Assembly: GCF_032921865.1 (NCBI RefSeq) | Contig: NZ_CP136684.1 | Span: forward strand, 131,501-195,500 | Direction of reading: 5' to 3' | DNA length: 64,000 nucleotides | Source of the DNA: Thalassospira lucentensis | Lineage (GTDB): Bacteria > Pseudomonadota > Alphaproteobacteria > Rhodospirillales > Thalassospiraceae | Shown here: positions 1-13,149 of the stretch, piece by piece | Layout: every line of letters begins with the position of its first letter | Numbering within the stretch: position 1 is the first letter of the stretch | Translations under genes and position numbers: made by a program | Notes under the pieces: generated by a model | The model's database searches: none | What the model saw: only the letters and a program-made list of their open reading frames with translations | Told to the model about the DNA's origin: nothing

Positions 1-243
1 GCGCCGCAAATTGTCCCCTTCGGGGTTCAAACCGTCTACGTAGGTCAAAGAGATGAAACACAGCAGCAAGAAAGCAGTAATCATCCAAATAATGCTTACG
101 TCAGCAGGTTTTATTTTCCTCGGAATCAGGAAAATTAGAAGAATTATTGCGCAAAAATCACTCGGGAAAAATGGGATATCAAAAAAATATCGAGGAAAAA
201 TCAAAGACACGCTACATAAGAAAATCGCTATTTTTATTAACAT
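1..243 (-). CDS. Truncated membrane protein of the EPS locus (N-terminal 81 residues)
   Basis: An open minus-strand frame starts with ATG at 243 and runs without a stop to the left edge, so only its first 81 residues are visible. AAGGGA lies about seven bases before the ATG, and the start overlaps the stop of the O-antigen ligase-like gene by seven bases, which suggests translational coupling. The visible part begins MLIKIAIFLCSVSLIF, then has further hydrophobic stretches around residues 33-40 and 50-66, followed by a polar segment (YVDGLNPEGDNLRR). It is AT-rich compared with the rest of the window. I do not recognise the family; a second polymerase-type or other multi-spanning EPS membrane protein fits the setting. 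Confidence 0.7.
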   Translation of the reverse strand, partial: MLIKIAIFLCSVSLIFPRYFFDIPFFPSDFCAIILLIFLIPRKIKPADVSIIWMITAFLLLCFISLTYVDGLNPEGDNLRR

Positions 244-1676
244 TTATTATCCCTTCTATGCCCCATATTGGAAACGGACACAGCCCAAACCAATCCGATC
301 AAATACAAGGAACTCACAGAAACTGAATACATCTTTAAGCTAAAATCAATTAAAGAATGCAACGACAACAAAAGCAATATTGCCACACCTAAGATACTAT
401 AGACGCTACTCTTTGATCTAATTAACGCCCCTTTTACCAAATCAAAAAACACGAAAGCCACTACTAACAATGACATCAAACCAAACACAAAACCAATTGA
501 AACAAATAAATCTAAGAATAAATTATGTGAAGATTGCCAAGTATATCTGCTCAGCTCAGGAGAATCTTTAAATGCATGAAACACTGTTTTAAAAGTACCT
601 GCCCCATATCCTTCAAGCCAAGCTCCCGAGATTGCTTCTACCACTCGGCCATATAAAGATTTGCGAAGGTCCCAAGCATCCTGATAACCAATAATGCGCT
701 GCAGGAGTTTTTCGCCACTCAGTAAAAAATTAAATGCAACCACAGTCAACATAGCAAAGGACGCCCCCAATAAGACTCTCTGGGTTCTTCCGACCTTGAT
801 TAAAAAAAGACCGAAAATTATGAATATCGCCATTCCAGTGGCTGCAACTCCTCCACGTGAATGAGTCAAAATCAATGCAGAAGAATTCAACAAAACTCCG
901 AGAAATGGAGCGAGGTTTTTATCAATTATCTGCGCGAAATTTTGTATTGCTCTCGCTCGCCCTCCTTTGTTTCTTTGAGAATACCGTTTATGTTGATCAA
1001 GCAATAACAAAAGTGATGAAACAAGTCCGATTCCAGCATAAGTTGCGTAATGATTGTGATTAATAAACGTGCTGGTCAAGTCCCCTATATATGCACTCTT
1101 GTCATACCAAAGGATTTTCTCCCACCCGCCGAAAAACACGGCGAGGCCGTAAATCGCATAAACAGTCGAAACAATAACGAAAAACTTCAACATGATTGCC
1201 GCATTCGCGCGGTCCCGCCCGTGCCGCGCGGCAAGCCAGAATACACCGGCATAGGCAAGCAGCACCATCAAGGCATCACGCGTACGTTCCGGATCAATCG
1301 AAACATATGCGGCCATATCCCGGCCAAGCTGTGCTGCCGCCTCGCCCCACATCGGATGGGCTGCGGCGGGTAAAATATCCGGGGAGGCCTGGATCACAAT
1401 CCAGATGACAACGGAAATAAAAAGAACTGCCGGAATGGCAATACGTTTCATAAACCGGCTTTCGCCGCGAACCGGGTCGGCAAATGCCGCAATGGCATCC
1501 AGCAAAACAAGAATGCCGACCCACAGGGAAAGAATGGACCATGCCCACGGCCGGTTCGAACCAAACGGCAGAGGCGCAATCGCAATCAGGGCAAGCAACC
1601 CGTAAAACACAAACCGGCGTACAAAATTCACGTCCCTGTTCCTTTCCCCATCCCTATACTCTTGTCGTATATCCAT
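237..1676 (-). CDS. O-antigen ligase / polysaccharide polymerase-like membrane protein
   Basis: This 479-residue protein has about ten to twelve predicted hydrophobic segments and a large loop with the STFINHNHYATY segment, typical of the O-antigen ligase (WaaL/Wzy, PF04932) superfamily. The N-terminal PLPFGSNRPWAWS segment is common in this group. Family members join or polymerise undecaprenyl-linked glycan units on the periplasmic face of the inner membrane. It is divergent from the Wzc-type gene, with 172 bases between them, and overlaps the next minus-strand gene. The C-terminal half of the gene (roughly 240-1100) is distinctly AT-rich, whereas the N-terminal half has normal composition. 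Ligase and polymerase activity cannot be told apart from sequence. Confidence 0.82.
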   Translation of the reverse strand: MDIRQEYRDGERNRDVNFVRRFVFYGLLALIAIAPLPFGSNRPWAWSILSLWVGILVLLDAIAAFADPVRGESRFMKRIAIPAVLFISVVIWIVIQASPDILPAAAHPMWGEAAAQLGRDMAAYVSIDPERTRDALMVLLAYAGVFWLAARHGRDRANAAIMLKFFVIVSTVYAIYGLAVFFGGWEKILWYDKSAYIGDLTSTFINHNHYATYAGIGLVSSLLLLLDQHKRYSQRNKGGRARAIQNFAQIIDKNLAPFLGVLLNSSALILTHSRGGVAATGMAIFIIFGLFLIKVGRTQRVLLGASFAMLTVVAFNFLLSGEKLLQRIIGYQDAWDLRKSLYGRVVEAISGAWLEGYGAGTFKTVFHAFKDSPELSRYTWQSSHNLFLDLFVSIGFVFGLMSLLVVAFVFFDLVKGALIRSKSSVYSILGVAILLLLSLHSLIDFSLKMYSVSVSSLYLIGLVWAVSVSNMGHRRDNKC

Positions 1677-1848: not shown

Positions 1849-4158
1849 ATGGGGGCCGTTTTGAACAGCACGACCAAGGTCAGTTCCGTGATGGATAACA
1901 GCGCGCGTGAACATAACAAATCACGCCTGAAAAGCCTGACCGATCGCATTTCTCAGCAAGGCAACAGTGACGAAATCGATCTGCAGGAACTGTTGCGCAC
2001 ATTGTGGCGGCGTAAATCTGTTATTTTTTCCGTCGTCGCCATCCTGACGGCACTTACAACCCTGATCGTGTTTCAGGTCGCACCGCGTTATACCGCAACC
2101 ACCAACGTTATTATCGATGGACGTAAATCCAACGTTGTCGATATCGAAAGCGTAATGACGGGCATGTCCGCCGAAATGGGCGCACTGCTAAGCGAGGTAG
2201 AGGTTATCCATTCGTCCTCGTTGATCCGGCGCGTGGTCGAAAAGCTGAAACTGGAACAGGACCCGGAATTCAACGTCGAGATTGCCAAAAAATCGTGGAT
2301 GGCATCGCTGCTTGATCCCGAAAGTTATGTTCCGCGCGATGTTCTGGTATCACTTGGCCTTACGGAAAACGAGATTCTGCTAAGCGAGGACGAACTCACC
2401 GAACAAACGACCAACCGTGTCGTCAAAGCCGTTCAGGAACAGCTCGAAGTCGGCATCGTCGGCCGGTCCCAAGTCATCGCAATCAACTTCACCTCCACCA
2501 ATGCGCGCAAGGCTTCGCTGATCGCGAACACCATCGCCGACCAGTATATCGTCGATCAGCTTGAAGCAAAGTTCGAGGCAACCCGCCGGGCAACATCATG
2601 GCTGAATGATCGCCTCGGTGATTTGCGCGAGCGCGTCGAAACAACCGAACGCGCTGTCGAGGATTACCGCGAGACAATTGCGGCAAGCTCCGGCCAAAGC
2701 AGTTCGATGACGCAACAACAGATATCGGAACTGAACTCGCAACTGATTCTTGCCCAGGCCGACCGGGCAGAAGCCCAAGCGCGCCTGAATCAGGTGCAGC
2801 GCCTGCTCAGCAGCAGTTCGGATCTGGCATCGGCAGCCGAAGTGCTGAATTCGCAACTGATCCAGCGCCTGCGTGATCAGGAAGCCGAGGTACTGCGCAA
2901 GGTATCCGAACTTGAATCGCGTTATGGTGACAGACATCCGCAAATGATCAAGGCGCGCGCAGAACTCACCGACCTGCGTGCCTCAATCGAGCGCGAGGTC
3001 CGTAAAATCGCACAAAGCCTGCGAAACGAAATGGGTGTTGCCGATGCGCGCGTCGCCACCCTGCGCCAAAGCCTTGGACAGCTCGAAACCAAAAACAGCT
3101 CCCAGAATCAGGCCGAAGTCCGGCTGCGCGAACTCGAACGCGAAGCAAATGCCAACCGCCTGCTTTATGAAAACTTCCTGAACCGGTTCAAGGAAACGAA
3201 CAACCAGGAAGATCTCCAGCAAGCAGATGCCCGCATCATTGCCCGCGCAGAAGTCCCGGTTGATCCATCTGCGCCAAAGAAAAAACTGATCATTGCGGTT
3301 GCGCTTGTCGGTTCAATGTTCCTTGGCGTTGTTCTGGTCTTTGTTCTCGAGCAGCTTGACAACACCTTCCGCGGTGCCGAGCAGATCGAACAGATGACCG
3401 GTATTCCCGCAATTGGCATGGTCCCGCTTTTAACCGGGACGCTTTTGGGGCGGACCGATGTCGGACGATATCCGACACAAAAACCCGGATCTGCAACAAC
3501 GGAATCCGTTCGCAGCCTGAGAACTTCATTAATGCTGTCAAATGTCGATGCACCGCCCAAGGTGGTTGGAATTACCTCAACGGTCCCGTCCGAAGGAAAA
3601 TCAACCCTCGCCGCATGGCTCGCACAGGTTGCCGCAACTTCCGGACAACGTGTCCTGCTCGTCGATTGCGACTTGCGCCGCCCTACCGTGCATCGCACCT
3701 TTGGCGTCAGCAATGAAAACAGTATCGTCGAGCTTCTGGCAAATGAGTGCTCGCTGGACCAGGCAATCAAGAAAGATCCGGAAAGCGGCATTTATGTACT
3801 TCCGGCCAAGAACACTCAGGCAAATGCCCTTGATCTTCTGTCTTCAAGCCACATGGCAGAAAACCTCAAGGCCCTTCGCGCGCATTTCGATTTCATCGTA
3901 CTTGACGCCCCACCTATTCTTGCCGTTTCTGACGCAAAGGTCATCGGCCTGATGGCTGACAAGATGCTTTACGTTGTAAAATGGGACGGCACACCTCGTG
4001 CACTGGTACAATCCGGGTTAAAGGAAACGGTTGAAGCGGGTATCGACCTTGCCGGAACGGTTCTTAGCCAGGTGAATGTGAAAAAACATTCCAAATATGG
4101 CTATGGCGATTACGGATATTATTATGGTCGTTACAAAGACTATTATTCGAGCAAATAA
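1849..4158 (+). CDS. Wzc-type polysaccharide co-polymerase / bacterial tyrosine kinase
   Basis: The 769-residue protein has an N-terminal Wzz domain flanked by membrane segments (about residues 60-80 and 480-500), a long periplasmic coiled-coil region (about 250-450) and a C-terminal BY-kinase domain. The kinase has Walker A (PSEGKST, near residue 580), Walker A' (LLVDCDLRRP, near 605) and Walker B (FIVLDAPP, near 685), and ends in a tyrosine cluster (YGYGDYGYYYGRYKDYYSSK) suited to autophosphorylation. Such proteins control chain length and export in Wzx/Wzy-type exopolysaccharide systems together with a Wza-type channel, which is encoded downstream. ATG 1849 follows GGGG by eight bases; an internal ATG at 1891 is an alternative start. 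Confidence 0.92.
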   Translation: MGAVLNSTTKVSSVMDNSAREHNKSRLKSLTDRISQQGNSDEIDLQELLRTLWRRKSVIFSVVAILTALTTLIVFQVAPRYTATTNVIIDGRKSNVVDIESVMTGMSAEMGALLSEVEVIHSSSLIRRVVEKLKLEQDPEFNVEIAKKSWMASLLDPESYVPRDVLVSLGLTENEILLSEDELTEQTTNRVVKAVQEQLEVGIVGRSQVIAINFTSTNARKASLIANTIADQYIVDQLEAKFEATRRATSWLNDRLGDLRERVETTERAVEDYRETIAASSGQSSSMTQQQISELNSQLILAQADRAEAQARLNQVQRLLSSSSDLASAAEVLNSQLIQRLRDQEAEVLRKVSELESRYGDRHPQMIKARAELTDLRASIEREVRKIAQSLRNEMGVADARVATLRQSLGQLETKNSSQNQAEVRLRELEREANANRLLYENFLNRFKETNNQEDLQQADARIIARAEVPVDPSAPKKKLIIAVALVGSMFLGVVLVFVLEQLDNTFRGAEQIEQMTGIPAIGMVPLLTGTLLGRTDVGRYPTQKPGSATTESVRSLRTSLMLSNVDAPPKVVGITSTVPSEGKSTLAAWLAQVAATSGQRVLLVDCDLRRPTVHRTFGVSNENSIVELLANECSLDQAIKKDPESGIYVLPAKNTQANALDLLSSSHMAENLKALRAHFDFIVLDAPPILAVSDAKVIGLMADKMLYVVKWDGTPRALVQSGLKETVEAGIDLAGTVLSQVNVKKHSKYGYGDYGYYYGRYKDYYSSK

Positions 4159-4161
4159 TCG

Positions 4162-4848
4162 ATGAAACGCTCCATTTTGCGCCGACTGCCTGCCTGTATC
4201 GGGCTGGTCGGCGCGGCTTTTCTCATCTGGCTTGCCGTTCCGCGTACTTTTGCCTCCATCATGCTCGCGGTTTCGAAACCGGCATACGAGCAGATCAATA
4301 ATCCCGCCCTTCCATTGGCCGATATCGTGCAACTGAAAGACCGGTTGCTCCGCGTGATTGACTGGGTCGACGAACGTGAAGTGCAAACGCGTCTCGGTTA
4401 TGTCGAACTCGCCCTTGCCGCGCGGGCAGAAAATGAAGCCGAACGGCAGAACCATCTTGCTCTGGCCGAAACCGCCTTTGAAGATGCCATCGCCCATTCG
4501 CCGATGGATCCGTTTTCATGGGTACGGCTTTGCTACATCAGATTGCAAACCGGTGGTGCTGAGGACGGAACAGCAATGCAGGCGCTATCAACATCGCTTG
4601 TCACCGGCCCGTACGAAAGATCCCTTGCAATTTCACAGATCGAATATGCTGCAATCCTGTGGGATCAACTTTCCGAAGACGATCAGAAAACCATCGAGGA
4701 AAAAGTGCGCTGGATCGAAACACTTGAACGCCGCGATCTGATTGCGCTCGCAAAGCAAAATCCCAAAACGATGACACTCGTCATACGTGCCATGGCGGAT
4801 GGCGATATTGACCGCTTCACCCGTTTTATTGTCCAGCTGAATAAGTAA
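4162..4848 (+). CDS. EPS-locus TPR-like membrane-anchored protein
   Basis: The gene begins three bases after the Wzc-type stop and so belongs to the same transcript. It encodes 228 residues with an N-terminal hydrophobic segment (about residues 12-32) and a mainly helical, charged remainder. The region around residues 65-115 (ALAARAENEAERQNHLALAE) resembles a degenerate tetratricopeptide unit. No catalytic motif is visible. Small anchored helical-repeat proteins are common in EPS export operons, where they may act as periplasmic scaffolds, but the role here is inferred from position only. Confidence 0.7.
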   Translation: MKRSILRRLPACIGLVGAAFLIWLAVPRTFASIMLAVSKPAYEQINNPALPLADIVQLKDRLLRVIDWVDEREVQTRLGYVELALAARAENEAERQNHLALAETAFEDAIAHSPMDPFSWVRLCYIRLQTGGAEDGTAMQALSTSLVTGPYERSLAISQIEYAAILWDQLSEDDQKTIEEKVRWIETLERRDLIALAKQNPKTMTLVIRAMADGDIDRFTRFIVQLNK

Positions 4849-5192: not shown

Positions 5193-6077
5193 ATGCGGCG
5201 CTTACAGAAACTGGCCGTTGCGACTGCGTTGGCTGGTAGTGTTTTCTTCGGCATGCAGACAATTGCTTATGCACAGACAAGTGCAGCACTAACTGCCGAG
5301 ATGGGTTCTCAGATTGACGGTGCTGCTGCCACCCCGGAAGCACTGAGCGCTATGGTTGCCAATCTGGTTCAGACCAACCCGACGCTTGCCGCTGCGATTG
5401 CCAAGCGCGCGACGCAAAGCAACCCGGCTGCTGCCGCACAGATTGCCCAGGCTATGGCACAGGCAGCCCCGCAGCAGGCAGCGGTTGCTGCTGCGGCTAT
5501 CACTGAAATTGCACCGCAGGCAGCTTCACAGGTTACCGCTGCCGCTGCATCGGCTGCTCCGCAACAAGCCGCAACAATCGCCGTTGCGGTCGCGGCCCGG
5601 GCACCGGCAGCGGCGCCACAAATCGCCGCTGCGGCAACTCGCGCGGCACCGCAATCGGCCTTGCAGGTCGCAGCTGCCGTTTCGCGTGCAAACCCGCAAG
5701 CCGCCAGCCAGATCGCGGCCCAGGTTTCTGTCGCAGCGGCCCAGTCCGGCTCAACAGCTAACTCGGGCACAATCGCGGCAACCGTCGCGTCGGCATCCCG
5801 TACCAGTGCAGCTGCGATTATTACTTCTGTCGCCGCAGCAACCGGAACCTCGGTCGCAGCCATCGCATCACAGGCTGCCCAGGGTGCCGCAACAGCGGCC
5901 CAGGTCGTCGCTTCAACCGATGTCACAGTTCAAAACGGTTTGAACGCCACGGCGCAGGCAAGTACCCAGACGGCGACCAGCACACAACAACAACAACAAA
6001 CAGTGACAACAAGCACACCTGTTGTGGAGCAACCCGTTGTCCAGGAAAATCCGGCCCAGACCGGCAGCCCGACCTGA
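5193..6077 (+). CDS. Secreted alanine-rich 15-residue tandem-repeat protein (copy 1)
   Basis: The 294-residue product has a signal peptide (MRRLQKLAVATALAGSVFFG, cleavage probably after AYAQ near residue 28). Residues 47-181 are nine gap-free 15-residue units of the form [A/N/T]PxxAxxIAxAxxxx, each starting with a helix-breaking proline and otherwise alanine-rich, so a chain of short amphipathic helices is expected. A Ser/Thr/Ala-rich section and a Gln/Thr-rich tail follow. It sits between the Wzc-type gene and an outer-membrane barrel gene and has a related protein two genes downstream. I know of no named family with this exact period. A periplasmic or extracellular structural part of the polysaccharide exporter or matrix is a guess from context. 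Confidence 0.8.
   Translation: MRRLQKLAVATALAGSVFFGMQTIAYAQTSAALTAEMGSQIDGAAATPEALSAMVANLVQTNPTLAAAIAKRATQSNPAAAAQIAQAMAQAAPQQAAVAAAAITEIAPQAASQVTAAAASAAPQQAATIAVAVAARAPAAAPQIAAAATRAAPQSALQVAAAVSRANPQAASQIAAQVSVAAAQSGSTANSGTIAATVASASRTSAAAIITSVAAATGTSVAAIASQAAQGAATAAQVVASTDVTVQNGLNATAQASTQTATSTQQQQQTVTTSTPVVEQPVVQENPAQTGSPT
5331..5735 (+). repeat. Nine tandem 45-bp coding units
   Basis: This 405-base segment encodes nine consecutive 15-residue units in one frame without indels, for example NPTLAAAIAKRATQS, NPAAAAQIAQAMAQA and APQSALQVAAAVSRA. The DNA copies have diverged much more than the protein pattern, so the period appears to be kept by selection rather than by recent duplication. Confidence 0.85.
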
Positions 6078-6126
6078 TTTGACCGAAAAAACACGTTTCA
6101 GATATTGATTTGAAGGGGAATACAAA

Positions 6127-7389
6127 GTGAAGGTTCTCAAAGGGGGATTACTCGCAACCGTTGCCGCTGGTGCTTTGGTTGCGGCGCTGACATCTTCTGT
6201 CAGCGCGCAGGAAGCCGTCAATCCGGATCAGGGCGTTGCTCAGCGCACCGCCGAAGGCTACGAACCGGTAGGCGCAACCGTTGGTTCATTCCGTCTCTTG
6301 CCGAAGCTGGAAGTTGTCGAAGAATTCAACGACAACATCTTCAAGGAAGAAAATGACGAAACCGACGATATGATCACCAAGGTTCAGCCGACCCTTAACC
6401 TGCGTTCTGACTGGAACAACCATGCACTGAACCTTGGTGCTGGTGCCGATTTCGGGTTCTATGCAGATTCAAATGACGATGATTACGAAGATTACAATGC
6501 CAAGGTCGATGGCCGTTTTGACGCCAGCCAGGCGCTGACTTTCAATGGCCTGGGCAGCTTTGAACATCTCCATGAAGACCGTGGTGGCGACGATGTCGAT
6601 GCCGATGCCGCCGATCCGGTTGAATATGACCGCCTGAAAGCTGAATTCGGTGGCCGGTTCAAGCCGAACCGTATCAGCCTTGGCGCAACCGGTCGCGTTA
6701 CCGATCTCGACTATGATGACAACGCAGAACTTGATGGTGGCACCACCAACAACGATGACCGTGATCGTCAGGTCCTTGAAGGCGAACTTCGCGCAGGTTA
6801 CGAAATCCAGACCGGTTATGAAGCATTCGTCAAAGGCGTTCTCAACGACCGCGACTATGATTCCGACGTCGACGATAATGGCTTCAACCGTGATTCAGAT
6901 GGTTATAATATTCAGACCGGTATCGCCATTGACCTGGACCAGCTGATCCGTGCCGACCTTGGCGTTGGCTGGATGGAACAGGACTATACCGATCCGTCAC
7001 TTCGCGATGCGGACGGTTATTCGGCGGATGCGACCGTTCGCTGGAACCTGACCGAACTGACCACGGTTCGCGGCACCTTCGCCCGTGCGATCAACGAAAC
7101 CACAACTGATGACGCATCTGCAATCGTTGCCACCAGCTACGGCCTCGGTGTTGATCACGAATTCCTGCGTAATCTTGTTGCGACAGCCGATGCCAACTAT
7201 CAGAACTCTGATTATGAAGGCATTTCGCGTGAAGACGATCTCATGAGCTTCCGTCTCGGCCTTGATTACAAACTGAACCGTAATTTCTTTGCCGGTGTCA
7301 GCTACAAGTTCGAAGACCGTGACTCAAACGTCACGGATCAGAGCTACGACAACAATATTTTCGCCATCAAGCTTGGCGCACAGTTCTGA
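6127..7389 (+). CDS. Outer-membrane beta-barrel protein of the EPS locus (BBP2/VpsM-like)
   Basis: The 420-residue protein has a signal peptide (cleavage probably after SVSAQ, residue ~28) and then alternating short beta-strand sequences with many acidic turns (DDD, DND, DRD). It ends in ...KLGAQF with a terminal phenylalanine, the usual recognition signal for outer-membrane assembly. The pattern matches outer-membrane beta-barrel proteins of the BBP2 type found in exopolysaccharide loci (VpsM-like). The start is GTG preceded by GAAGGGGA. It lies between two Ala-rich repeat genes and is followed by a strong terminator. A channel or anchoring role in glycan secretion is inferred. Confidence 0.8.
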   Translation: MKVLKGGLLATVAAGALVAALTSSVSAQEAVNPDQGVAQRTAEGYEPVGATVGSFRLLPKLEVVEEFNDNIFKEENDETDDMITKVQPTLNLRSDWNNHALNLGAGADFGFYADSNDDDYEDYNAKVDGRFDASQALTFNGLGSFEHLHEDRGGDDVDADAADPVEYDRLKAEFGGRFKPNRISLGATGRVTDLDYDDNAELDGGTTNNDDRDRQVLEGELRAGYEIQTGYEAFVKGVLNDRDYDSDVDDNGFNRDSDGYNIQTGIAIDLDQLIRADLGVGWMEQDYTDPSLRDADGYSADATVRWNLTELTTVRGTFARAINETTTDDASAIVATSYGLGVDHEFLRNLVATADANYQNSDYEGISREDDLMSFRLGLDYKLNRNFFAGVSYKFEDRDSNVTDQSYDNNIFAIKLGAQF

Positions 7390-7413
7390 TCTGTACCTGA
7401 GTAACATATCCTG

Positions 7414-7446
7414 AAAATCCCCCGACCATCCTCGGGGGATTTTTTA
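7414..7446 (+). terminator. Rho-independent terminator after the beta-barrel gene
   Basis: AATCCCCCGA and TCGGGGGATT form a perfect ten-base stem around a six-base loop (CCATCC), followed by a run of T. It lies 24 bases past the barrel stop codon. Confidence 0.9.
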
Positions 7447-7590
7447 ATACAGCAATATGTCTCGCCCCTGCCCTCACAAGGGATCAGGTTCCATTCGCTG
7501 TTACTTCTTTAGATTTTTAGCTTCCGGTAAAACACTTCAAACTTTACGCCAGACCTGCCAGACGACCTTGCAGGGTTCAGGGGAAATCAG

Positions 7591-8577
7591 ATGAAAACTT
7601 TATCGAAATTCATGGCAGTTGTTCTGCTTTCAGGCAGTCTGCTTGGCACCCATACTGCTTCGGCATGGGCACAGGCCGCTTCCGGAGCAGGCTCTTCCTC
7701 CGGAACAGGCTCTTTTGGTGGCGCTGGCGCTGCCGCAGGTGCTGGCGCAGCTGGTGCATCAGCGGTCGGCGGAATAACCGCCGGGGCACTCGCCGTAGGT
7801 GTTGCTGCCGCGGCTGCCATCGGTGTTGCGGTCGCTGTCGCCAGCACTACCACCTCGCAAAGTAATCTTACTCAGGCCGAACAAAATCTGATTGACAATG
7901 CAACGGATGCTGCATCGCTGGCAAATGCCATTCAGCAAGTCACACAGGGTCGGATGGACGGCGCGAGCAGTACGCAGAGCACGCGTGACAGCGCAATTGC
8001 CGAGGCCGTATCACGCGCCATCAAACGCAATCCGGCAGCAGCTGCAACAATTACGACCGTCGCCATCGGCGTTGCAAACGGTTCAAATGTAAGCATCGAT
8101 GAACAGGGCAACATTGTTGTGACAGTTGTTGCCGCAGCAACGGCTTCCGCACCGGATCAGGCAGGTGCAGTCACGACCGCAGCGGCCTCGGTATCGCCTG
8201 CACTGGCTGCGGCCATTGCACAATCCGCTGCAACCGCGGCTCCGGATCGCGCAGCTGATATCACAACCGCCGCAATCCGGGTTAACCCGGGCCAGGCCGC
8301 AGCAATTGCAAAAGGTGCCGCAACGGGTGCCCCGACACAGGCAGCAGCCATCACCACGGCCGCAGTTGTCGCGGCACCAACGCAGTCGACCGCCATCACC
8401 AGCCAGGTTTCAAGCGTAAGTGGCGTTAATGCAGCGGCTGTCCAGCAGGCCGCAACAACCGTCCAACCCACTCAGACCGCTTCGAACAACACCAATGACG
8501 GTCAGGATCAGGATATCGGCAACACGATCACCGTTGTGACCGAAGAAAACCCAGGTCAGGATGCCAGCGCAAACTAA
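7591..8577 (+). CDS. Secreted alanine-rich 15-residue tandem-repeat protein (copy 2)
   Basis: This 328-residue protein has a signal peptide (MKTLSKFMAVVLLSGSLLGT..., cleavage near SAWAQ), a Gly/Ser/Ala-rich linker (residues 29-60), a strongly hydrophobic Ala/Val/Gly segment (about 62-84) and a helical region. Residues 187-276 are six gap-free 15-residue units beginning AP, SP or NP (for example NPGQAAAIAKGAATG), with one isolated unit near residue 147. The period and consensus match the protein encoded at 5193-6077, so the two are paralogous in their repeat domains although their other parts differ. The hydrophobic segment could anchor or oligomerise it. Start: ATG with AGGGGA upstream. Function is unknown; exopolysaccharide export or matrix structure is inferred from neighbours. 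Confidence 0.78.
   Translation: MKTLSKFMAVVLLSGSLLGTHTASAWAQAASGAGSSSGTGSFGGAGAAAGAGAAGASAVGGITAGALAVGVAAAAAIGVAVAVASTTTSQSNLTQAEQNLIDNATDAASLANAIQQVTQGRMDGASSTQSTRDSAIAEAVSRAIKRNPAAAATITTVAIGVANGSNVSIDEQGNIVVTVVAAATASAPDQAGAVTTAAASVSPALAAAIAQSAATAAPDRAADITTAAIRVNPGQAAAIAKGAATGAPTQAAAITTAAVVAAPTQSTAITSQVSSVSGVNAAAVQQAATTVQPTQTASNNTNDGQDQDIGNTITVVTEENPGQDASAN
8149..8418 (+). repeat. Six tandem 45-bp coding units
   Basis: The 270-base segment encodes six 15-residue units with the same proline-start, alanine-rich consensus as the nine-unit array at 5331-5735. DNA identity between units is low, so this is an old, protein-level repeat. Confidence 0.8.
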
Positions 8578-8625: not shown

Positions 8626-8654
8626 AATCCCTTCGGGTTCCGCCCGGAGGGATT
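8626..8654 (+). promoter_or_regulatory. Stable hairpin in the leader of the Wza-type gene
   Basis: Arms ATCCCTTCGGG (8627-8637) and CCCGGAGGGAT (8643-8653) pair over eleven positions with one G-T pair, and the outer A-T pair extends the stem. It lies 20 bases before ATG 8675 and is not followed by a T run, so it may attenuate or protect the downstream message. TATAAT occurs at 8623-8628 but no well-spaced -35 was found. Confidence 0.5.
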
Positions 8655-8674
8655 TACGTTCTAAAGGTTTTAAG

Positions 8675-9208
8675 ATGTTGCGTTCTGTCGGTTTTCTTCT
8701 GTTGGCTCTATTCGCCCTGCTGGTATCGCAGGATGTCTATGCGCAACAGCCAGTCTATACTCTTGGTTCCGGCGATAAACTTCGGGTAACCGTATTTGGC
8801 GAAGAAGACCTGTCGGGGGAATTTGAGGTCAGCGGCAATGGCCAGATATCCTTACCGCTGATCGGAGAAGTGGACGCAGGCGGCAAAAACCTGCGTGCGC
8901 TTGCCGATGTGATCGAAGATAGGCTTCAGGAAGGCTACCTCAAGGACCCGAAAGTCAGCATTGATGTCCTGAACTATCGCCCCTTCTATATTCTGGGCGA
9001 GGTGAAGGAACCAGGCAGCTATCCCTATGTCAGCGGCATGAGCGTGCTTAACGCGGTCGCTCTGGGGGGCGGCTTCACTTACCGTGCGGACAAGGAAGAC
9101 ATCCTGATTATCCGGGGGGGTGATGAAAGCCGTAAACCGGAAAAAGCCACACCTGAAACCGTGGTTCTGCCGGGCGATATAGTTCGCGTTGAAGAACGGT
9201 TCTTCTGA
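8675..9208 (+). CDS. Wza-type polysaccharide export protein
   Basis: The 177-residue product has a signal peptide (cleavage near DVYAQQ) followed by the polysaccharide biosynthesis/export domain that opens YTLGSGDKLRVTVFGEEDLS, then a SLBB-like segment (FYILGEVKEPGSYPYVSGMS). It is shorter than E. coli Wza and resembles the compact alphaproteobacterial type without the C-terminal membrane helix. It would form the periplasmic/outer-membrane part of the export conduit with the Wzc-type protein. ATG 8675 was chosen over upstream in-frame starts because AAAGG precedes it by seven bases and the signal peptide begins there; the upstream in-frame sequence crosses the leader hairpin and overlaps the previous gene. 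Confidence 0.9.
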   Translation: MLRSVGFLLLALFALLVSQDVYAQQPVYTLGSGDKLRVTVFGEEDLSGEFEVSGNGQISLPLIGEVDAGGKNLRALADVIEDRLQEGYLKDPKVSIDVLNYRPFYILGEVKEPGSYPYVSGMSVLNAVALGGGFTYRADKEDILIIRGGDESRKPEKATPETVVLPGDIVRVEERFF

Positions 9209-9227: not shown

Positions 9228-9255
9228 AAAAAGCCCGGTCGATACCGGGCTTTTT
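9228..9255. terminator. Bidirectional terminator
   Basis: AAAAAGCCCGGT and ACCGGGCTTTTT form a perfect twelve-base stem with a four-base loop. It ends the plus-strand EPS transcript; the stop codon of the convergent phosphatase gene overlaps its right arm by two bases. Confidence 0.93.
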
Positions 9256-10027
9256 ACATGATTGAATATTGTCTTCCCTGCAGCCGAAGGCATGTCAGCC
9301 GGCCACTATAATAGGCTCCCGTATCAATCCCTATGCGGTTTGGCCGAAATTCAGGTTCATCCGTGATCGTATGACCATGCACGATAACCTTTTCGAAACC
9401 GCCGGTATGCGTCAGGAACGGCTCCCGTATCCATCGCAGGTCTTCGGGTATCTGTTTCTCCAAAGAACGATCCGGATTTATGCCCGCATGAACAAAGCAA
9501 TAATCACCAATTGTCACGGCATCCTCAAGCTGCTGCAAAAATACCAGATGCCCGCTCTCTTCCATCCGGGATCGAAGATCCTCGGCGACTTTTGCAAGCT
9601 TCCCGGCTGAAAGCACGCCCGCAGGCATACCAACCCCATAACTCAGCAGCGTCTCTGCCCCCCCATAGGAAAGCCAGGACGTACCTTCTTCCGGATTATC
9701 AAGAAAACGCAGCAGAAACTCTTCGTGATTGCCGATGATTTTTGTCTGTCTGACACCGGCATTGTCCATCTCCCGAATCATATCAATCACTTTGCGGCTT
9801 TCGGGACCACGGTCAATATAATCGCCCAGATAAACAATTCTTTTCGCAATACCGCTATCGACCGGGTCGCGCTGAATTGCAACAAGATAATTCTCGAGAA
9901 GATCCGCCCGTCCATGAATATCGCCGATCGCGTACACGACAATATCATCCGGTATCGATGTTTCTCCCAGAAAGACCGATTGCGACCTTTCGTCGCCCTT
10001 TTTCTTTCTGGCAAACCAGGAAAGCAC
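9254..10027 (-). CDS. Calcineurin-like metallophosphoesterase (PrpE/ApaH-like Ser/Thr phosphatase)
   Basis: The 257-residue protein carries the metallophosphatase motifs in order: GDIHGR (residues ~34-39), GDYIDRGP (~67-74), GNHE (~98-101), a later VHAG and VHGH. These bind the dimetal centre and phosphate. Members dephosphorylate phosphoproteins or cleave dinucleoside polyphosphates; which applies cannot be told. The start is GTG preceded closely by GGGAGGAAAT. It converges with the Wza-type gene across a shared terminator. A link to the nearby tyrosine kinase is possible but this fold is normally a Ser/Thr-type or general phosphatase. Confidence 0.88.
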   Translation of the reverse strand: MLSWFARKKKGDERSQSVFLGETSIPDDIVVYAIGDIHGRADLLENYLVAIQRDPVDSGIAKRIVYLGDYIDRGPESRKVIDMIREMDNAGVRQTKIIGNHEEFLLRFLDNPEEGTSWLSYGGAETLLSYGVGMPAGVLSAGKLAKVAEDLRSRMEESGHLVFLQQLEDAVTIGDYCFVHAGINPDRSLEKQIPEDLRWIREPFLTHTGGFEKVIVHGHTITDEPEFRPNRIGIDTGAYYSGRLTCLRLQGRQYSIM

Positions 10028-10109
10028 TATTTCCTCCCAAAGATTTTGATATCGCCCGACCGGATAAATCAGGCGTCCATATCATGCCACGAACGCCTGA
10101 AAATAAAGC

Positions 10110-10913
10110 CTATCTGCTTTCAACAAGGGTCATGGCGATCCAGACACTGTAAATCTTACCATTCGGCCCTGTGTAAGAAAACTGTCCCCACCCGTCCTGC
10201 TCCTCAAGAAGCTTCAACGGCGTTGCGGACGGCATCTGAAACGCAATCTTGTAATCTGTACCCGGCCCGATACGGGCGTTAACAGTATCAGAAGTACTGT
10301 GCCAGATTTTCACCTCGTCATCGGGAAGGGGAACCGTATTTTCGCCTGCCACGCTTGCGACTTCTGTCACGACGTCTGTATCATTTACATTCTCGGACAC
10401 CGTTTCAGATTCTTGCGGGTCAGTGGATATTTCGGATGCACCGACCTGATCATCGGCAGAAAATCCGGCGGCAACCTGTTCAACGGTTTCAACAGCCTCT
10501 CCCTCTGCCGTTTCGCGTTCGTTCAGGCCTTGCGCATCCCCCGAAATTCGCTCGATCATACGCCCGTTAATGAGCAACTCATCAAGTCGCCAGCAATAAC
10601 TCTGCGGATTATCTTCACAAACATAGGTAACCCGCCCGTAAAATGGTGGCGATACATTTTCCTTGCCCAGCGTACCGCGAAAATCCCACTCGAATTCGCC
10701 AAGCCGGTTGCCGGGTACCAGCATCGTCAAACCATATCCATGCATATCGAGGGTCGGCTTCACGGCTTCGATAATACCGGCATAAATATCAGCAGGACTT
10801 GGAGAAAACCGGCCTTCCTGCTGTTTTTCCAATTCCAGTCGATGCTGATAATAGCCCCATCCCCCTGCCCCCGCGATGGCCAGAAGGATTAAAATGAATA
10901 TCAGTTTTTTCAT
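10110..10913 (-). CDS. Membrane-anchored SH3-domain protein
   Basis: The product has 267 residues from the ATG at 10913 (MKKLIFILILLAIAGAGGWG). It has an N-terminal membrane anchor or uncleaved signal, a globular part with two cysteines (YVCEDNPQSYCW), an acidic low-complexity linker rich in E, T, S and V (about residues 125-195) and a C-terminal bacterial SH3 domain (NARIGPGTDYKIAF... to GWGQFSY). SH3b domains usually bind cell-wall or other peptide ligands in the periplasm. A longer version would start at a TTG at 10940 and is less likely. Function is unknown. Confidence 0.72.
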   Translation of the reverse strand: MKKLIFILILLAIAGAGGWGYYQHRLELEKQQEGRFSPSPADIYAGIIEAVKPTLDMHGYGLTMLVPGNRLGEFEWDFRGTLGKENVSPPFYGRVTYVCEDNPQSYCWRLDELLINGRMIERISGDAQGLNERETAEGEAVETVEQVAAGFSADDQVGASEISTDPQESETVSENVNDTDVVTEVASVAGENTVPLPDDEVKIWHSTSDTVNARIGPGTDYKIAFQMPSATPLKLLEEQDGWGQFSYTGPNGKIYSVWIAMTLVESR

Positions 10914-10984
10914 AAACTTGAACTCAACCCGCGTGCGCAATTAGAACGTCAGTAACATCAAAAGCTTCGTCGAAGCATGCGATG

Positions 10985-11404
10985 CTACTTCGAAAGCTCC
11001 TGCTTGTGCGTTTCATATTTCGGGTGATCCGGGTTCAAAAACGCGACATCATTTTTGATGTCATCAACACTGATGTTTCTGTCCTCGGCAATACGCAAAA
11101 CCCAGTGAATTACCCTCCCGCGGCCTGTCCAGGTTTCTTCCGCGTTCTCGGGGTTACGATATTTCGGTACAACCTGCTGCTTTTCTGCAACTTGACGTTC
11201 CCCTTCTTTGGCAACGCGGCTTTTCGATAATTCGGGATAAAGGTCATAAATAGAAAGGCCTGCATCAAAAAGCTTCTGATCAATCTCTCCGCGCAGATCG
11301 GAAATAAACTGGGATTTACGATTTTCTACTTCTCGTTCCGCGTCTTCCATCAAACGCTTTAATTCGGCATATCCAAGCTTGGAAATATCAATCCCGCTGA
11401 TCAT
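10985..11404 (-). CDS. H-NS family nucleoid-associated protein
   Basis: The 139-residue protein has an N-terminal coiled coil (about residues 10-45) and the C-terminal H-NS DNA-binding core, with YRNPENAEETWTGRGR as the diagnostic segment. The family oligomerises along AT-rich DNA and silences foreign or low-GC genes. ATG 11404 is preferred over an in-frame GTG at 11416 because GGGTGAG lies seven bases upstream of the ATG. It lies about 10 kb from the AT-rich left edge of the window, whose genes would be natural targets, although that is inference. A short palindrome with a weak T run on the minus strand (GCTTCG-T-CGAAGC, 10964-10976) may end its transcript. Confidence 0.9.
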   Translation of the reverse strand: MISGIDISKLGYAELKRLMEDAEREVENRKSQFISDLRGEIDQKLFDAGLSIYDLYPELSKSRVAKEGERQVAEKQQVVPKYRNPENAEETWTGRGRVIHWVLRIAEDRNISVDDIKNDVAFLNPDHPKYETHKQELSK

Positions 11405-11649
11405 AAAATTTCTCACCCGTCAGGTTTTATTGGTCAAAGCAAAATACTCCGACCGTTCAATTTACAATTTATATCGAAATTCAGATAAAACTACAAACAG
11501 CTGACTTATGAAATCCGCGCTAAATCAAAAATATTTCGGGAATCGAACTCTGGGCCGATTATTCATTCCAAACCGAATTGAATAATCCGGCAGCAGCCTG
11601 TTAAAGCCACCACCGGATCATTTTAATCATCAGTCAATTCTGAAAGAAA

Positions 11650-13149
11650 TCACTTCATCGTCGGCATGACGAATTCGGCGCCCTTGCGAATACCCGTCGG
11701 CCAGCGCGAGGTGATGGTTTTAAGGCGGGTATAGAACCGCACCCCTTCCATCCCATGCATGTGATGATCGCCAAACAAGGATGCCTTCCAGCCGCCAAAT
11801 GAATGGAACGCCATCGGAACCGGGATCGGCACATTGATGCCGACCATGCCGGTCTGGGTGCGGTTGGCAAATTCACGCGCCGTATCGCCATCACGGGTAA
11901 AGATCGCGGTACCATTGCCATATTCGTGGCTATCAACAAGATCGGCTGCGGCTTCAAAATCATCGGTCCGCACGATTGACAGGACCGGGCCGAAAATCTC
12001 TTCCTTATAGATCGTCATGTCGGGTGTGACATTGTCAAACAGGGTCCCGCCAACGAAATAGCCGTCTTCATAGCCCTGCAAACGAATGTCGCGGCCATCA
12101 ACAACCAGCTTCGCCCCTTCTTCAACGCCCTTGTTGATATAACCGACAACCTTGTCGCGGTGCTGTGCCGTCACAAGCGGCCCCATTTCGGCGGCCGGAT
12201 CGGTCCCCGGTGCAACGCGAAGTTCGTTAATGCGCGGGACAAGCTTTTCGACCAGCGCATCCGCCGTTGCCTTGCCCACCGGTACTGCAACCGAAATCGC
12301 CATGCAGCGTTCGCCAGCCGATCCATATGCCGCCCCCATCAGGGCATCGACCGCCTGATCCATATCGGCATCGGGCATCACGATCATGTGGTTTTTCGCG
12401 CCCCCCAACGCCTGGCAACGTTTGCCCTGCGCAGTCGCGGTTTCATAGATGTATTTTGCAATCGGGGTCGACCCGACAAAGCTGATTGCGCTGACATCCG
12501 GATCAAACAGAAGCGCATCAACCGCTTCCTTGTCGCCCTGCACAACGTTGAAAACGCCGTCCGGCAAACCGGCTTCGCTCAGCCATTCCGCCAGCAGAAG
12601 CGACGCAGACGGATCACGTTCGGATGGTTTCAGGATGAAACAGTTGCCGCAGGCAAGCGCAACCGGGAACATCCACATCGGCACCATGGCCGGGAAGTTG
12701 AACGGCGTAATACCGGCGACAATACCAAGCGGCTGACGCACCGAATGGCTATCAACCTTGGTACCGACATTCTCGGTGAATTCGCCCTTCAAAAGCTGCG
12801 GCGCGCCGGTGGCAAATTCAACAACCTCGATCCCGCGGGTGACTTCACCCAGTGCATCCGAAAGCACCTTGCCATGCTCGGCGGTAATGGCCGCCGCCAG
12901 TTCTTCCGAACGGCTTTCAAGGATGCCCAGGAATTTATTGAGGATACGGGCACGACGCAGCGGCGTGGTATTGGCCCATTCCGCGGCCACCGACCGTGCA
13001 CTTTCGACAGCATTTCGAACCTCGGCCTTCGATGCAAGATCAACGGTCGCACTCTGCTGACCGGTGGCCGGGTTGAACACGGCCGCTGTCCGGCCGGAAG
13101 TCCCGGCGACACGTTTGCCGTTGATGTAATGGGTGATCTGGCTGGACAT
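11650..13149 (-). CDS. mmsA: CoA-acylating methylmalonate-semialdehyde dehydrogenase
   Basis: The 499-residue enzyme is a full-length aldehyde dehydrogenase of the MmsA/IolA group. It has the substrate-site segment [16 protein letters not shown], the coenzyme-binding [12 protein letters not shown], the catalytic cysteine in GERCMAIS and the family C-terminus with [10 protein letters not shown] and [12 protein letters not shown]. It converts malonate semialdehyde or methylmalonate semialdehyde plus CoA and NAD to acetyl-CoA or propionyl-CoA and CO2. That step serves valine and thymine breakdown and also finishes myo-inositol catabolism. The inositol cluster at 50-61 kb has no iolA of its own, so this gene may supply the step. 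It is divergent from a LysR regulator. Confidence 0.95.

Follow-up and report, generated by a model that had tools for sequence, protein, structure and literature searches.

A 15-residue alanine-rich repeat protein is encoded beside the outer-membrane barrel of a composite polysaccharide exporter in Thalassospira lucentensis and its relatives

We analyzed a 64,000-nucleotide (nt) stretch of the Thalassospira lucentensis genome (the window; assembly GCF_032921865.1, contig NZ_CP136684.1, positions 131,501 to 195,500, forward strand), where an exopolysaccharide (EPS) locus encodes two repeat proteins, RepA (5193..6077, 294 residues) and RepB (7591..8577, 328 residues), on the forward strand on either side of an outer-membrane beta-barrel gene. 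The conclusion that RepA belongs with the locus's composite exporter is well supported within Thalassospira and for many of its relatives. More tentatively, RepA may be a Sec-exported periplasmic accessory of this short-OPX/beta-barrel exporter that scaffolds the junction between Wzc, Wza and the barrel.

The original prediction counted nine gap-free, proline-led 15-residue units in RepA and six in RepB, and both counts were borne out. RepA consists of a signal peptide, an N-cap helix, nine 15-residue helical units (5334..5738, residues 48–182, forward strand; prolines at 48, 63, 78, 93, 108, 123, 138, 153 and 168), a long C-terminal helix and a disordered tail. RepB has a signal peptide, a GfcA-like hydrophobic segment rich in Gly and Ala (7675..7860, about residues 29–90, forward strand), six 15-residue units (8152..8421, residues 188–277, forward strand; prolines at 188, 203, 218, 233, 248 and 263) and a tail ending in ENPGQDASAN. 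When each protein minus its first 28 residues was shuffled 20,000 times, no proline chain exceeded four, and the observed chains of nine and six were never reached. Self-identity within the arrays was above all 1,000 array-region shuffles (z of 5.9 at lag 15 and 6.3 at lag 30 for RepA; 4.5 and 5.7 for RepB). The DNA copies are diverged, as had been claimed, with a mean pairwise identity between 45-nt units of 0.45 (RepA) and 0.51 (RepB), while the protein period is exact.

The unit consensus is P-x-x-A-A-x-[IV]-A-x-A-[VA]-A-[TK]-A-[AVN], compiled from 143 units of 23 sampled proteins (units were picked as proline chains of at least three, and two of the 23 proteins yielded none). A RepA-type profile matched the RepB relatives of L025–L029 and L076 (E 5e-16 to 2e-12), and therefore the two arrays are homologous. 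Judged by eye, both N-termini resemble Sec signal peptides (ending ...AYAQ in RepA and ...AWAQ in RepB), in agreement with the prediction, but the tails it had called different are not wholly so, since RepA ends in the related motif ENPAQTGSPT. Neither protein reached a curated Pfam or NCBIfam cut-off, and the same held for 12 members of family profile A3 compared with Pfam.

The fold predicted by AlphaFold for RepA is an alpha-solenoid with one 14-residue helix per 15-residue unit and a proline at each helix start (mean predicted local distance difference test score, pLDDT, 85.4; predicted template modeling score 0.78; block mean pLDDT 93–98 across the units). Block means across the RepB units were 87–95. 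Consequently, between a regular solenoid and disorder, on which the original prediction was to be judged, the models favor a regular helical solenoid for both proteins. Natural solenoid units, such as TPR and HEAT, have about 30–40 residues, and the 15-residue single-helix unit is shorter. A Foldseek search gave no match under E 0.94, a sequence search of solved structures gave a best E of 0.26, and no TPR, HEAT, Sel1 or other Pfam helical repeat scored above its gathering score in RepA, RepB or the 12 A3 members. Some solenoid families were absent from the VIA-align listing, which does not count as their exclusion. The XPC-binding/STI1-like domain (PF09280) matched the NP-spaced helices weakly (E 0.0016; 3 of 12 members at E<=1), and membership was rejected because its score, 18.5 bits, falls below the gathering score of 26.4.

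The window's locus combines the Wzx/Wzy pathway with a composite exporter of the short-OPX/beta-barrel type. On the forward strand, it encodes a Wzc-type polysaccharide co-polymerase with tyrosine kinase (1849..4158; Pfam Wzz, GNVR and AAA_31; NCBIfam TIGR01005 above cut-off), a VpsP-like protein (4162..4848; NF038257, E 5e-6, below cut-off), RepA, the BBP2_2 barrel (6127..7389; PF10082, E 1.7e-111), RepB and a short Wza (8675..9208; 177 residues; Poly_export, PF02563, E 1.6e-24, plus SLBB). As described in the available parts of PMC9601211 and PMC9603273, the EpsX/EpsY and VpsM/VpsN translocons share this core of a Wzc, a short OPX, a coupled barrel gene and Wzx/Wzy genes. The window's OPX is under the 280-residue limit and has the PES (Poly_export) domain, its gene lies within five genes of the barrel gene, and Wzx/Wzy pathway genes are present (two Wzy_C proteins, a sugar transferase and Polysacc_synt). 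Those same parts of the two accounts mention no solenoid protein and no SP tail. Among open-access titles and the starts of abstracts, we recognized no paper on repeats of this type in polysaccharide export, with most subscription journals and preprints lying outside this coverage. The PEP-CTERM/XrtA system was considered and rejected: RepA and RepB have no PEP-CTERM match in Pfam or NCBIfam, and the XrtA-type barrel equivalogs fell below their cut-offs (TIGR03016, 86.1 versus 90.85; TIGR03014, 64.5 versus 275).

RepA is present in 8 of 28 Thalassospira genomes, the window's own counted. Seven of these eight have the matching barrel type; in the eighth (G015), contig breaks interrupt both RepA and RepB, and the flanking genes are present. 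The order Wzc-VpsP-RepA-barrel-Wza is kept in all six of the other intact genus loci. The remaining 20 genomes have a more distant barrel (33–40% identity). As a control, 12 such distant-type loci of 11 genomes, one of them in G021, which also has RepA, gave no profile match. Thus, the claim that the repeat proteins are tied to the EPS locus holds for RepA, but not for RepB, which mostly lies elsewhere. Within the genus, the proline chain varies from 4 to 9 units, while the lengths of Wzc, the barrel and Wza are almost constant. A ruler model is unlikely because the unit number varies without variation in these partners, and it does not track Wzc length (Spearman 0.23, p 0.37, 18 loci).

We surveyed the best 80 of 192 named barrel loci, containing 3,949 open reading frames (ORFs); this set is not unbiased because most of the ten loci behind the barrel query contain a member. 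The profiles matched 13 ORFs (E<0.05), one per locus, and each of the 13 immediately precedes the barrel gene on the same strand, at a distance of 28–230 nt. These loci belong to Thalassospira (three), a Thalassospiraceae metagenome-assembled genome (MAG), a Magnetococcales MAG (15 units), Defluviicoccus (two), other alphaproteobacterial MAGs (two) and the Methylococcaceae/Methylovulum/Methylobacter group (four), so that homology to RepA crosses class boundaries. Three matches were weak: Defluviicoccus L191 and the near-identical L186 (E 0.005–0.011), and one Methylococcaceae-type locus (E 0.016). Six loci were known beforehand (L169, L170, L171, L186, L194 and L235, with L171 and L194 holding profile rows) and seven were new (L172, L176, L191, L201, L209, L211 and L217). 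When the upstream proteins were aligned to RepA with hhalign, the probability was 93.5% for the Methylococcaceae group and 28.8% for a Parvibaculum-like group. It was under 1% for Caulobacter, Brevundimonas and one further locus group, for which we do not claim homology to RepA. As a separate observation, in eight Caulobacter/Brevundimonas loci (L223, L224, L226, L227, L231, L233, L246 and L248) the gene just before that of the barrel encodes a short, Ala-rich protein whose start resembles a signal peptide, and these proteins end otherwise (DYCGT, SDYRP..). By eye, the Sphingomonas upstream proteins of L241 and L243 have no repeat and no SP ending.

RepA profiles also found short secreted relatives across the Alphaproteobacteria. 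At E<=1e-3, profile A4 (93 positions) matched 30 of 385 class genomes (22 once the window's own and the seven sources of profile rows are set aside) and 21 of 299 genomes in the phylum set, the window's own included; its reversed control matched none of 289 class genomes at that threshold and six at E<=0.01. These searches scored only 5–40 first-look candidates per genome, and absence there means not detected. With the window's own left out, 29 genomes outside the genus had a best E<=1e-5 (15 class and 14 phylum); seven of the 15 class genomes, found earlier with the genus profile, had supplied profile rows (G099, G283, G357, G369, G381, G411 and G415). We counted an export gene wherever Wzc, Wza or the barrel had a BLAST match within the fetched stretch. 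Such a gene lay near the match in 16 of the 29 genomes, including 7 of 15 in the class (G155, G264, G283, G357, G369, G381 with the barrel only, and G415) and 9 of 14 in the phylum set (G462, G497, G518, G537, G543, G564, G578, G586 and G590). The co-occurrence with export loci that the original prediction proposed as a check was therefore found in part. Weaker matches in G104 and G069 also lie within export loci, outside this count. Many matches between E 1e-5 and 1e-2 were doubtful, for example those to proteins of L114 and L115 that look Sel1-like by eye, and the 16 of 29 does not include this range; L157 was a clear false positive. Separately, a family in another class of the phylum (f214) has proteins of 246–280 residues with more charged, proline-led 15-residue units in chains of six and no SP tail (L276 8661-9458; L277 391-1155; L279 9166-9927; L283 383-1123; L284 8608-9450).

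The C-terminal tail of RepA, PVVQENPAQTGSPT (6033..6074, forward strand), carries a motif common to distant members, and 21 of 39 members have SP among their final five residues. A C-terminal SP or SPx was found in 10 of 35 barrel-upstream ORFs compared with 7 of 799 other ORFs of these loci, one of the seven being itself a RepA (Fisher 7e-11, uncorrected for kinship). The 35 ORFs, from the 80 loci, were selected by a crude filter that missed at least L171, L186 and L191 and kept the Wzy-like L178 and L187. Within the window, no other ORF of at least 60 residues has such an ending, save one chance -SPP. ENP near the end is found in RepA, RepB, L151, L154 and L176. Stand-alone members have 171–412 residues (the 412 reflects an over-long start), and in four larger members (L112, L113, L270 and L280; 627–841 residues) the units follow a FecR-like region; of the three scanned with Pfam, L112 and L280 matched FecR and L270 had no match. 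The domain is also fused N-terminally to MlaA (L153 and L165 by Pfam; L155, L156, L161, L164, L166 and L167 by sequence likeness) and to MipA (L152 and L163 by Pfam), and in the four scanned fusions Pfam leaves this helical domain uncovered.

RepB has a different distribution. It is found in seven of the eight RepA genomes versus none of the 20 others (Fisher 7e-6, uncorrected for kinship). It adjoins export genes in just two of them, the window's own genome and G015; in five of the six genomes other than the window's, it lies outside the export locus, away from the barrel. The statement that the two repeat proteins flank the barrel in an EPS locus is thus accurate for the window, from Wzc to the short Wza, but RepB's position is not conserved. 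In L025 and L028, which were scanned with Pfam, its neighbors are flavin adenine dinucleotide oxidase, choline sulfatase and carboxymuconolactone decarboxylase genes. In G026 (L026, region 9275-12855), RepB adjoins a Wzy-like gene and a second VpsP-like gene with 71% identity to the window's; going by this arrangement, the window's locus may have acquired pieces of another locus. The VpsP-like gene in the main locus of G026 has only 50% identity to the window's.

The N-terminal part of RepB may point to a second export family. When the class was searched with RepB, its first ~110 profile positions matched seven stand-alone proteins of about 100 residues that are rich in Gly and Ala. A GfcB/YjbF homologue adjoins four of the five look-alikes examined, three of which also have GfcD/YjbH-like genes, and the fifth is on a short contig. 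A hidden Markov model (HMM) of the RepB and look-alike N-termini matched Escherichia coli GfcA with E 0.0017, versus 0.013 for the best of 200 shuffles, under strong composition bias; it did not reach YjbE (E 3.4). Residues ~1-90 of RepB resemble GfcA in a signal peptide, a stretch rich in Gly and a putatively related GG(I/V)-AGA-like hydrophobic segment, whereas GfcA, at 101 residues, ends Thr-rich and lacks a solenoid. The group 4 capsule system has GfcBCD where the window has a BBP2 barrel, and none of GfcB, GfcC or GfcD matched among the seven locus proteins scanned. Going by these sequence comparisons, we propose that RepB joins a GfcA-like segment to a RepA-type solenoid in a chimera that would have been brought into the locus in this lineage. 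Small GfcA-like proteins also adjoin GfcB/YjbF homologues in the alphaproteobacterial L289, L290, L292 and L118; adjacent to them are a ~950-residue protein with Wza similarity (L289 and L290) and a 969-residue protein with GfcC/YjbG similarity (L292).

Starting from the observed repeats, cross-class homology, gene order and tail enrichment and from the predicted fold, we infer the location, binding partner and scaffold role of RepA as follows. RepA would be exported by Sec and fold as a compact alpha-solenoid with a disordered linker, followed in about half of the members by the C-terminal SP tail. It would be retained in the periplasm at the outer membrane, its tail would dock on the barrel or on Wza, and the solenoid would scaffold the Wzc-Wza-barrel junction where the polymer exits. 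We favor a periplasmic scaffold on the grounds that the gene adjoins that of the barrel, that the domain is fused to outer-membrane proteins and that the tail is short and resembles a docking element; a role in retention at the surface ranks close behind.

Several observations weigh against this periplasmic scaffold. No member was detected in 67 of the 80 named barrel loci or in two of three non-genus barrel loci read separately (L060 and L073). The SP ending is missing in 18 of 39 members, including RepB and four of six genus RepA relatives. Outside the genus, 13 of the 29 genomes have no export gene in the fetched stretch, the MlaA and MipA fusions among them (G093, G099, G140, G221, G245, G334, G338, G411, G580, G622, G681, G690 and G701; the contig ends near the match in G245, G334 and G622), showing that part of the family is scattered outside export loci. 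In Sphingomonas LM7, the hypothetical gene prmB, between the sugar transferase and the barrel, is reported in the available text of PMC11340318 to be dispensable for promonan production. It is a positional analogue of repA, compared by gene position alone, and the role of RepA may therefore be accessory.

It is possible, though less probable than a periplasmic scaffold, that RepA and RepB are surface matrix or retention proteins whose Ala-rich solenoid and Ser/Thr/Asn/Gln-rich tail bind or trap the polymer. The variation from 4 to 9 units within one genus resembles that of many surface proteins, the tails are of low complexity, and three genomes have two tandem RepB copies away from the barrel; an amyloid or anchoring role has also been proposed for the GfcD system, according to the part of PMC9603273 at hand. 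However, the only signal visible by eye is of the Sec type, with no known outer-membrane secretion signal, and the MlaA and MipA fusions point to the periplasm.

Those same fusions would suit a general periplasmic outer-membrane domain, assembly- or chaperone-like, that has no specific link to export and adjoins the barrel gene because of barrel assembly. The five f214 genomes, with no export gene in the fetched stretch, agree with such a domain. We nevertheless consider it unlikely, as all 13 matches in the named barrel loci lie directly upstream of an export barrel and the fusions match less strongly (E 5e-8 to 5e-4) and have no SP ending. A role for RepA and RepB as glycan acceptors or carriers is less probable still. 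The job of GfcA is given as unknown, and this Ser/Thr-rich protein has been suggested to be such an acceptor (PMC8592465, from the portion available); deleting gfcA in enteropathogenic E. coli removes the group 4 capsule, with complementation (PMC3853201, likewise in part), and RepB carries the GfcA-like segment, but RepA does not. Finally, it is scarcely credible that an alanine share of 35% (RepA) or 29% (RepB) after the signal peptide marks low-complexity sequence with no function as a repeat protein, which the period, fold, gene order, barrel-locus survey and reversed-profile control contradict.

Further features surround these genes. A terminator-like hairpin with a T-run lies 3′ of the barrel gene (7414..7445, forward strand; fold z -5.2, with none of 200 shuffles as stable), and therefore RepB may be a separate transcription unit. 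This hairpin is absent from the list of a consensus terminator scan, and consensus promoter and terminator scans gave no more matches than in shuffles. Another hairpin, without a T-run, lies between RepB and Wza (8626..8655, forward strand; fold z -3.9 for the stretch), and Rfam gave no match. Upstream, on the reverse strand, is a Wzy/O-antigen-ligase-like polymerase (237..1676; PF04932, E 7e-14), and left of the window are a sugar transferase, a Wzx-like flippase, three GT9 and one GT1/GT4-type glycosyltransferase, an FkbM methyltransferase and a second Wzy_C protein. Adjoining Wza on the reverse strand is a calcineurin-like phosphoesterase (9254..10027; PF00149, E 8e-11); as a guess, the Wzc kinase could be its target, with this enzyme standing in for a Wzb/Etp phosphatase. 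Phosphoesterase-like matches occur in 26 of the 80 named barrel loci.

The consulted part of PMC9603273 treats the route of a polymer from the inner-membrane machine via a short OPX into a separate beta-barrel as a dilemma and an open question. A conserved solenoid of variable length with a short tail, whose gene immediately precedes that of the barrel, is a testable candidate for this transit. In a wider and rather doubtful reading, a phylum-wide, previously undescribed family of 15-residue single-helix solenoids, with up to 15 units, might be the missing adaptor of the third outer-membrane polysaccharide export system, docking on the barrel through the SP tail, and RepB might show that its job is shared with GfcA of the group 4 capsule system. 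RepB would thereby link two export families, the BBP2-type and the Gfc-type.

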